Below, piece by piece: positions 12,318 to 36,198 of a DNA stretch of 37,310 nucleotides (position 1 is the first letter of the stretch; every line of letters begins with the position of its first letter). Below the pieces are notes generated by a model. That model saw nothing but the letters and a program-made list of their open reading frames with translations. It made no database searches and had not been told where the DNA came from. A program made the position numbers and the translations under genes. Source of the DNA: Nocardioidaceae bacterium (GTDB lineage Bacteria; Actinomycetota; Actinomycetes; Propionibacteriales; Nocardioidaceae); NCBI GenBank assembly GCA_029268205.1, contig JAJUGK010000007.1, positions 1-37,310 of the forward strand, written 5' to 3'.

Positions 12318-12401
12318 GGCAGCTCCAGATACGGGGCAGCTCCAGATCGGGACAGCCTCAGATCGGGCGCAGGCGCGGATCCGGGGCAGCCTCAGACCCG
12401 G
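12318..12401. repeat. Degenerate 16-18 bp tandem repeat (about 5 copies) overlapping the lexA stop codon
   Basis: GGCAGCTCCAGATACGG / GGCAGCTCCAGATCGG / GACAGCCTCAGATCGG / GCGCAGGCGCGGATCCGG / GGCAGCCTCAGACCCGG. Confidence 0.75.
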
Positions 12402-13120
12402 CGCAGGACGGCGGTGACCTTGCCGAGGATCGTGGCGTGCGTGCCGTCGATCGGCTCGTAGGCGTCGTTGTGGGGGAGCAGCCAGACCTGGCCGTCGACG
12501 CGGCGGAAGGTCTTCACCGTCGCCTCGCCGTCGATCATCGCCGCGACGATCTCGCCGTTCTCGGCGGTGGGCTGCTGGCGGACGACGACGTAGTCACCGC
12601 TGCAGATCGCGGCGTCGATCATCGAGTCGCCGCTGACCTCGAGCAGGAACAGGGTGCCGTCGCCGACGAGCGTCTTGGGCAGCGGGAAGACGTCCTCGAC
12701 CCGCTCCTCGGCCAGGATCGGCCCGCCGGCGGCGATCCGGCCGACCACCGGGACGTACGCGGCGCTGGGGCGGTGGTCGCCCACGCCGGTCTCGTCGACC
12801 GAGGACTCGGTGGCGGTGCCGACGGCGCGACGCGACGCGAGCGCGTCGGGGAGGAGCACCTCGAGCGCCCGGGGCCGGTTGGGGTCGCGCTTGATGTAGC
12901 CCTTCTCCTCCAACGTGCGCAGCTGGTGGGCCACGGAGGAGGAGCTGGCCAGACCGACGGCCTCGCCGATCTCGCGCATGCTCGGCGGGTAGCCGCGCTG
13001 CTCGACCGACTCGACGATCACCGTCAGCACGCGCTGCTGGCGCGGTGTCAGGCCGGTGGCGTCCGGGGGACCGTCGGGGAGCTCGCGGACGGTGGCGCGG
13101 GATCGCTTCTGGGCTGCCAT
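12392..13120 (-). CDS. lexA: SOS-response repressor LexA
   Basis: [65 protein letters not shown]; cleavage region [13 protein letters not shown]; catalytic GDSMIDAAI and [21 protein letters not shown]. Confidence 0.98.
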
Positions 13121-13152: not shown

Positions 13153-13168
13153 TCAAACACCTGTTCGA
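13153..13168 (-). promoter_or_regulatory. LexA box in the lexA promoter
   Basis: Minus strand TCGAACAGGTGTTTGA, matching the actinobacterial consensus TCGAAC-N4-GTTCGA in 11 of 12 defined positions. It overlaps a candidate -35 (TTGATC) of a predicted leaderless lexA promoter (-10 TAGGTT at 13127-13132). Confidence 0.85.
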
Positions 13169-13246
13169 ACGGCGTGTCGGTCCCCGCAGGGTCCCGAGGG
13201 ACCCCCGGGCGGCCTCCGGGCGGCCCCTGGTGGCTCGCCCTCGGGG

Positions 13247-13262
13247 TCGAACATCGGTTCGA
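13247..13262 (+). promoter_or_regulatory. Perfect LexA box
   Basis: TCGAACATCGGTTCGA matches TCGAAC-N4-GTTCGA exactly. Confidence 0.88.
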
Positions 13263-13279
13263 TTCGATGCTTGCGTCGT

Positions 13280-13330
13280 TCGAACAAGTGCTCTACGGTC
13301 GTACACGTGTTCGAACGAACAGGTTATCGA
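13280..13330 (+). promoter_or_regulatory. Cluster of three further LexA-like boxes over the LysM-gene promoter
   Basis: TCGAACAAGTGCTCTA (13280-13295), TCGTACACGTGTTCGA (13299-13314, one mismatch), ACGAACAGGTTATCGA (13315-13330, degenerate). Candidate -35 TTGCGT 13271-13276, 17-bp spacer, -10 TACGGT 13294-13299. Confidence 0.65.
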
Positions 13331-13441: not shown

Positions 13442-13783
13442 ATGAGCACCCTGACCCTCAGCAGCAGCTTCACCCCGGTCCGTCGTCCCGCGCCGGTCCG
13501 GTTGACCCGTCGTGGGCGGCTCGTCGTGCTGGCGGCCTGTCTGCTCGCGGCGCTGGTGGTCTCGGTCGTGATCGGGGCGCAGTCGTCCGCCACGCGCGAG
13601 GGCGGCACGCCGGTGCCGACCCGCACGGTGGTCGTCGGTGCCGGCGACACCCTGTGGGAGATCGCCAGCGAGGTGGCCGAGCCGGGCGAGGCCCGCGCGA
13701 TGGTCCACCGGATCGAGAAGCTCAACGCGCTCGAGGGCGCGGGTCTCCAGGTCGGTCAGGAGCTGGCGGTCCCGCTGGGCTGA
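13442..13783 (+). CDS. Membrane-anchored LysM-domain protein, DivS/ChiZ (Rv2719c)-like SOS cell-division suppressor
   Basis: 113 aa: one TM segment (RLVVLAACLLAALVVSVVIGA), then LysM VVVGAGDTLWEIASEVAEPGEARAMVHRIEKLNALEGAGLQVGQELAVPL. Divergent from lexA, SD GGAGG upstream. Confidence 0.8.
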   Translation: MSTLTLSSSFTPVRRPAPVRLTRRGRLVVLAACLLAALVVSVVIGAQSSATREGGTPVPTRTVVVGAGDTLWEIASEVAEPGEARAMVHRIEKLNALEGAGLQVGQELAVPLG

Positions 13784-35640: not shown

Positions 35641-35865
35641 GTGTCAGTGGAGGGTGGATCGACGGTGCACGAGGAACGACTCGAGGTCCTGGCGTGTGCG
35701 AGTCCCGGCGTGGACTCGCGCACCTATGCCGCGGCCGTACGCGTATGGCTGCACGGAGGTGTGCTGCGCACCGATGCGGCCCTGCTCGTGCCGGGGGAGG
35801 CGACCCCGTCCATGATCGCCGAGGCGCGCCGCCGCCAGGCGTACGGCGCTGCCGTCGCCGCCTGA
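35641..35865 (+). CDS. Small hypothetical protein (74 aa)
   Basis: MSVEGGSTVHEERLEVLACASPGVDSRTYAAAVRVWLHGGVLRTDAALLVPGEATPSMIAEARRRQAYGAAVAA; candidate -10 CACAAT 6 nt before GTG. Confidence 0.6.
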   Translation: MSVEGGSTVHEERLEVLACASPGVDSRTYAAAVRVWLHGGVLRTDAALLVPGEATPSMIAEARRRQAYGAAVAA

Positions 35866-35905: not shown

Positions 35906-35921
35906 TCGAACAGGTGTTCTA
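35906..35921 (+). promoter_or_regulatory. LexA box upstream of the 88-aa ORF
   Basis: TCGAACAGGTGTTCTA: 11 of 12 defined positions of TCGAAC-N4-GTTCGA. Shares TCGAACAGGTGTT with the lexA autoregulatory box in this window. Confidence 0.82.
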
Positions 35922-35931
35922 ACATGGCGCC

Positions 35932-36198
35932 ATGGGCGGCGGACATCGTGGCGGACACGCCAACCCGACCGCGCCCGATGACGGTCGGCGCGCGGTCCAC
36001 GTGTGGGTGCGCCGTCCCGGCTACTTCGGCGAGGAGCGGTTGCCCGGACTGCTGTTGATGTGGCGCCGGGGGCGTACGCGGTCCGGCGCCCCCCAATGGG
36101 AGGGCTGGGTGGTGTTCGCCGCGACCGGCCACCCGGAGGGCGGCGGACCGGTCGTCCGCCAGGAGTGGGTGGAGGCGGCGGCGATCATGCCCCGCTGA
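35932..36198 (+). CDS. Uncharacterised 88-aa protein, predicted LexA/SOS-controlled
   Basis: MGGGHRGGHANPTAPDDGRRAVHVWVRRPGYFGEERLPGLLLMWRRGRTRSGAPQWEGWVVFAATGHPEGGGPVVRQEWVEAAAIMPR. LexA box ends 10 bp before ATG; -10-like TAACAT (35920-35925) 6 nt before ATG. Confidence 0.75.
   Translation: MGGGHRGGHANPTAPDDGRRAVHVWVRRPGYFGEERLPGLLLMWRRGRTRSGAPQWEGWVVFAATGHPEGGGPVVRQEWVEAAAIMPR

Follow-up and report, generated by a model that had tools for sequence, protein, structure and literature searches.

A conserved family of small proteins under a LexA operator in soil actinobacteria, a candidate SOS effector

Among the small effectors and inhibitors of the SOS response that LexA represses are SulA, DinI, YneA, DivS, and ChiZ, and the known SOS division inhibitors of actinobacteria have a membrane segment or a LysM domain. 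Actinobacterial SOS regulons, of which that of Streptomyces venezuelae is one, hold many genes of unknown function (PMC9380542). Proteins of mobile elements that act on the SOS response are also already known, namely gp7 of phage GIL01 (PMC4551915) and RamT/RamA of ICEBs1 (PMC11841131). For most candidates, the evidence is a box found in a single genome. We describe here a gene for an 88-aa protein in a 37,310-nucleotide stretch of a Nocardioidaceae genome (the window), whose protein family keeps an operator fused to a leaderless-type promoter. Three taxonomic families within a single order retain that arrangement, as do plasmid copies and prophage-like loci, and we therefore regard the protein as a well-supported SOS effector candidate.

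The gene occupies positions 35932-36198 of the forward strand, and its LexA operator (SOS box), TCGAACAGGTGTTCTA, lies at 35906-35921 on the same strand. The last two bases of the operator begin a -10 hexamer of the TANNNT type, TAACAT (35920-35925, forward strand), which is followed by GGCGCC and the ATG at 35932, a hexamer-to-ATG spacing of 6 nt. An earlier note on this DNA had placed the box, the hexamer, the start codon, and the end of the stop codon at exactly these positions, and its observation that the first 13 nt of the box recur in a lexA-side box at 13153-13168 (minus strand) proved correct as well. The operator agrees with the consensus TCGAACANNTGTTCGA at 13 of the 14 defined positions, and the sole departure, a T for G in the last TCGA, supplies the TA with which the -10 hexamer begins. 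In the window, the operator 16-mer, searched at three mismatches or fewer, is expected by chance 0.03 times and was matched six times, five of the matches falling at four sites before lexA and the sixth being the operator itself. Across the genome's own assembly (2.6 Mb, 81% complete), the box at 35906-35921 is one of only four sites that match TCGAACANNTGTTCKA with zero mismatches. Inspection of the flanking genes revealed no other obvious client for this box; a small same-strand ORF (35641-35865) ends upstream of it, and the genes that follow downstream are read from the minus strand. Given the 6 nt that separate TAACAT from ATG 35932, the mRNA is predicted to be leaderless from this codon. 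By the layout of TA-type promoters, transcription would begin at the start codon, with LexA covering the -10 element. We decided against the out-of-frame ATG at 35924 as the start codon because the conserved frame is the 88-aa one and 35932 suits leaderless spacing.

The presumed repressor of the operator is encoded in the same window by lexA (12392-13120, minus strand; TIGR00498, 244 bits). A cluster of four LexA-type boxes, which served as an internal reference for the motif, occupies 13153-13314 between lexA and a divergent LysM-like gene. The latter (13442-13783, 113 aa) resembles SOS genes of the ChiZ/DivS type. Further boxes in the assembly precede recA, imuA'-imuB, uvrA, and an alkB-like gene, as identified from their translations, and these boxes indicate an ordinary LexA regulon in the window's genome. 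The TIGR00498 lexA is present in all 10 genomes tested, that is, the window genome and nine relatives. At a separate site (G000:C16:13787; L002 1501), a perfect LexA box starts a 156-aa ORF, and a Y-family polymerase gene is found close by.

The earlier note had proposed the uncharacterised protein as a candidate SOS effector on the strength of its box, and the lack of a conserved box upstream of orthologues had been named beforehand as a finding that would count against it. We gathered 113 distinct homologues from the fetched loci by a core profile and scored a box where at least 12 of 14 positions matched within 260 nt upstream. Such a box precedes 84 of the 113, and none of the 13 orthologues from the named collection lacks it, which supports the proposal. 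The background among neighbouring genes is 32 of 826 (3.9%), an upper bound, as many of the 32 are divergent genes under the same operator or mis-started family members. The 29 homologues that fall short of 12/14 include several prophage-type copies (L039, L040, L057, and L150); these four lie near lysis or integrase genes and have no LexA box that we could recognise, as though phage transcription had taken them over.

The promoter layout is conserved along with the operator. Among 42 distinct promoters with a box ending in TA, 37 have a TANNNT hexamer that starts on those two bases, and an ATG or GTG follows 6-7 nt later, an arrangement that arose in a mean of 0.9 and a maximum of 6 cases when the downstream bases were shuffled. 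For the GA-type promoters, a looser test that was run without the shuffled control, and is weaker for it, found NANNNT near the box and 6-7 nt before ATG/GTG in 37 of 38; their start codon most often lies 20 nt after the box. The operator is kept in unrelated settings, including the chromosomal potassium-channel locus, plasmids, and integrase-flanked loci. Taken as sequence evidence, this conservation makes SOS control of the window gene very likely.

Patterns of substitution show that the 88-aa frame is a real translated gene under purifying selection. Comparison with an orthologue from the same genus (84% identical) yields dN 0.10 and dS 0.64, with 13, 6, and 28 changes at codon positions 1, 2, and 3, and pairwise comparisons give dN/dS values of about 0.1-0.3 with a strong excess of third-position changes. 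The protein consists of a variable N-terminal tail (residues 1-21; 35932-35994, forward strand), predicted with low confidence in the AlphaFold2 model, and a conserved domain (residues 22-88; 35995-36195, forward strand), predicted to be an all-beta small barrel. The family core reads HVWV-x(n)-PGLLLEWRR-x(n)-WEGxVVYA-x(n)-EWVxAxxLxP, and Trp25, Gly39, Trp44, and Trp79 are invariant among 28 family sequences. The N-tails differ, with MAGGMNKRGSG and MGGNKRYP as repeated forms, and some members have almost no tail.

Six-frame protein searches detected homologues in 57 of the 150 genomes sampled from the same taxonomic family; a second family member, used as the query across the order, detected them in 97 of 248 genomes. 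The family is thus present in over a third of the sampled Nocardioidaceae/Propionibacteriales genomes, besides plasmids and prophage-like loci, although these prevalences, like the DnaE2 co-occurrence table given below, are approximate because single-protein searches include weak, possibly chance matches (e.g., L062). A phylum-wide profile search scored 12 candidates per genome and so under-counts; no prevalence figure is drawn from it. Named chromosomal records belong to Nocardioides, Pimelobacter, and relatives, and plasmid copies, some of them weak matches, were found in Nocardioides, Pimelobacter, Sinomonas, Yimella, Aeromicrobium, and Janibacter. The literature that we searched, which covers part of all literature, yielded no published description. 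We conclude that this family of small, LexA-controlled proteins in soil actinobacteria is genuine and undescribed. Its members are short and diverged and hence easily overlooked in annotation; most plasmid matches carry no annotated feature, in feature tables that are themselves incomplete. An 83-aa gene on a S. venezuelae plasmid (L185, 13896-14171), which lies behind the box TCGAACACGTGCTC, was considered as a relative and rejected as unrelated by the family profile; its SOS box is within about 10 nt of the start codon.

The 88-aa product gave no significant match in Pfam, NCBIfam, or PADLOC, which bears out its earlier description as uncharacterised. We took two marginal hits, TIGR03964 (E 0.055) and phrog_29475 (E 0.072), for chance matches, and the DNA polymerase theta fragments that were the sole return of a profile search of PDB sequences (E about 1) were rejected on the same grounds. 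One relative had a marginal match in PHROGs, from which the family is effectively absent. The earlier characterisation of the protein as basic holds only mildly: averaged across the family, the net charge of the core is +0.9 (sd 2.0) and that of the full-length protein +2.8. We recognised no catalytic motif or membrane segment in this small, soluble protein.

Two AlphaFold2 models built from a 14-sequence alignment agree on roughly five beta strands, the last of which is preceded by a short helical turn; their mean pLDDT values, 74 and 70, indicate moderate confidence from shallow alignments. The nearest PDB structures by Foldseek are chromo-barrel, PWWP, Tudor, and Agenet domains, with probabilities of up to 1.0 at E values of about 0.2, and neither model has a match at E 0.001 or better. 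A weak Agenet profile match (E 0.053) is kept only as a hint. Among viral models, the nearest are uncharacterised proteins, several of them from actinophages, and these do not reach significance. The models point to a small, all-beta, SH3-like barrel of chromo-barrel type as the most likely fold. Such a barrel could bind DNA or RNA in the manner of Sm, Sac7d, or chromo-like domains and coat or mark nucleic acid during the SOS response, as the invariant tryptophans and the basic N-tails in part of the family would allow. The near-neutral charge of the core and the near absence of a tail in some members speak against this role, which we consider quite unlikely.

Genomic context shows the gene in several surroundings. 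Within Nocardioides it often follows a TrkA-type potassium-channel gene, in a neighbourhood of acyl-CoA dehydrogenase, YihY-like, and channel genes (identified by eye), and the setting in the window is comparable. The small ORF at 35641-35865, between the potassium-channel gene and the SOS gene, is conserved in the genus (L038, L052) and has no Pfam or NCBIfam match. Other copies of the family adjoin phage-type integrases or an endolysin, and plasmid copies have parA, ssb, or dprA genes nearby. Two adjacent family members occur on plasmids pCHL and pA-N39 and in genome G682; these tandem pairs (L107, L108, L131, and L133) are on Nocardioides/Pimelobacter plasmids and in G682, where the reading frames overlap by 4 nt (L131), which suggests a two-gene operon. 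No constant partner gene was seen across the loci examined. When four family members were used to scan viral contigs directly, no relatives turned up, and the prophage link therefore rests on integrated copies. The repeated placement near integrases or lysis genes and on plasmids, together with strong sequence divergence between copies, would suit a protein of defence or inter-element conflict, carried as prophage or plasmid cargo and triggered by SOS to inhibit competing phages or mobile elements. The protein matches no PADLOC model of known anti-phage defence, however, and the copy conserved at one chromosomal locus across Nocardioides suggests a house role too, so that we consider this function quite unlikely.

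The earlier note had further suggested a tie to the ImuB/DnaE2 mutasome, with co-occurrence and neighbourhood as the means of checking it, and this part of the proposal is unsupported. DnaE2, called by NF004225 over its curated cut-off, is present in 101 of 150 genomes. Family carriers with and without it number 61 and 23, and non-carriers 40 and 26, an association that is not significant (Fisher p = 0.16). The 23 of 84 carriers that lack DnaE2 over the cut-off include 14 of the 20 genomes with the strongest MAGG-type copies, and complete genomes with well-conserved copies are among them (G139, G111, and G146). Where gene and DnaE2 share a contig, their median distance is 572 kb and 31 of 33 copies are more than 80 kb away. 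Linkage was found in one genome only, G028 (C2), in which two copies (L045 and L196) flank imuA'-imuB-dnaE2; the copy upstream of imuA' has the box GCGAACACGTGTTCTA and the leaderless spacing of the family. This arrangement, in one genome among those tested, could be chance. An obligate mutasome partnership of the family is rejected, an occasional association may exist, and even with the G028 copies and the LexA control that the gene has in common with imuA'-imuB in the window's genome, we hold it very unlikely that the 88-aa protein is a partner of ImuA'-ImuB-DnaE2.

Our preferred reading, which we think probable, is a single-gene SOS unit coding for a small-barrel, stoichiometric binding protein that modulates a component of DNA metabolism, the SOS response, or the cell cycle. 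In an undamaged cell, LexA at 35906-35921 would cover the promoter spacer and the -10 element and keep the gene off, as the sequence and its conservation imply. Upon DNA damage, LexA would be cleaved and RNA polymerase would use TAACAT, starting at or next to A35932. The resulting leaderless mRNA is predicted to yield an 88-aa soluble protein with a flexible N-tail and a small all-beta barrel of the SH3/chromo-barrel/Tudor type. This protein may then act temporarily on its target by stoichiometric binding, with RecA/LexA, the replisome, RNA polymerase, and the division machinery as candidate targets. A binding role is most likely because the protein has no catalytic motif, membrane segment, or constant partner gene, a weak argument in that it draws largely on absent features. 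By analogy, the most likely mode is modulation of the kind attributed to small SOS-linked inhibitors and adaptors such as SulA, DinI, and phage gp7.

A more specific function, as an SOS-induced inhibitor of growth or division, repressed because leakage is harmful and released after damage to hold the cell cycle in a SulA/DivS-like checkpoint, seems unlikely. An operator that overlaps the -10 element, as it does both here and in the family's TA-type promoters, would agree with it, and so would a single gene that has no partner and encodes a small, soluble protein. Homology to SulA or any other named inhibitor is missing, however, as the window protein and its relatives have no significant Pfam or NCBIfam match to SulA, YneA, DivS, or ChiZ. 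The protein also has neither the membrane segment nor the LysM domain of the known actinobacterial inhibitors, and the separate LysM gene beside lexA (13442-13783) already suits that role.

Returning to the binding protein that we favour, carriage on plasmids and prophage-like elements suggests that it may be of use to mobile elements too, for example in damping or surviving the SOS response. Whether gene and LexA operator together form a cassette that moves among chromosomes, plasmids, and prophages, with the small barrel binding RecA, LexA, or the replisome to tune or end the response, is a bolder idea that we judge unlikely; if true, hosts and mobile elements would share and compete over one feedback device. 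Should the protein indeed modulate RecA, LexA, replication, or division, it would open up a new point of control over survival after damage and over the contest of mobile elements with their hosts.

With the chromo-barrels of MSL3/MRG15 and with Tudor, Agenet, and PWWP domains, the 88-aa protein would share, in its predicted fold, curved beta strands, a short helical turn, and a last short strand. Unlike those barrels, it is bacterial and shows no sign of an aromatic cage or methyl-lysine binding, and the E value of the likeness is not significant. The gene resembles the LexA-regulated actinobacterial genes recA, lexA, and imuA'-imuB in operator type, promoter position, and nearness to the start codon, but none of the curated libraries that we searched contains its protein family. 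As a small product under predicted LexA repression, the protein can be likened to SulA, DinI, YneA, DivS, and ChiZ, from which it differs in having no curated-family match, membrane part, or LysM part. Its likeness to GIL01 gp7 and ICEBs1 RamT/RamA, which mobile elements encode and which are linked to the SOS system of the host, is drawn as an analogy; in contrast to these, the 88-aa family has a LexA box of its own and is chromosomal as well.
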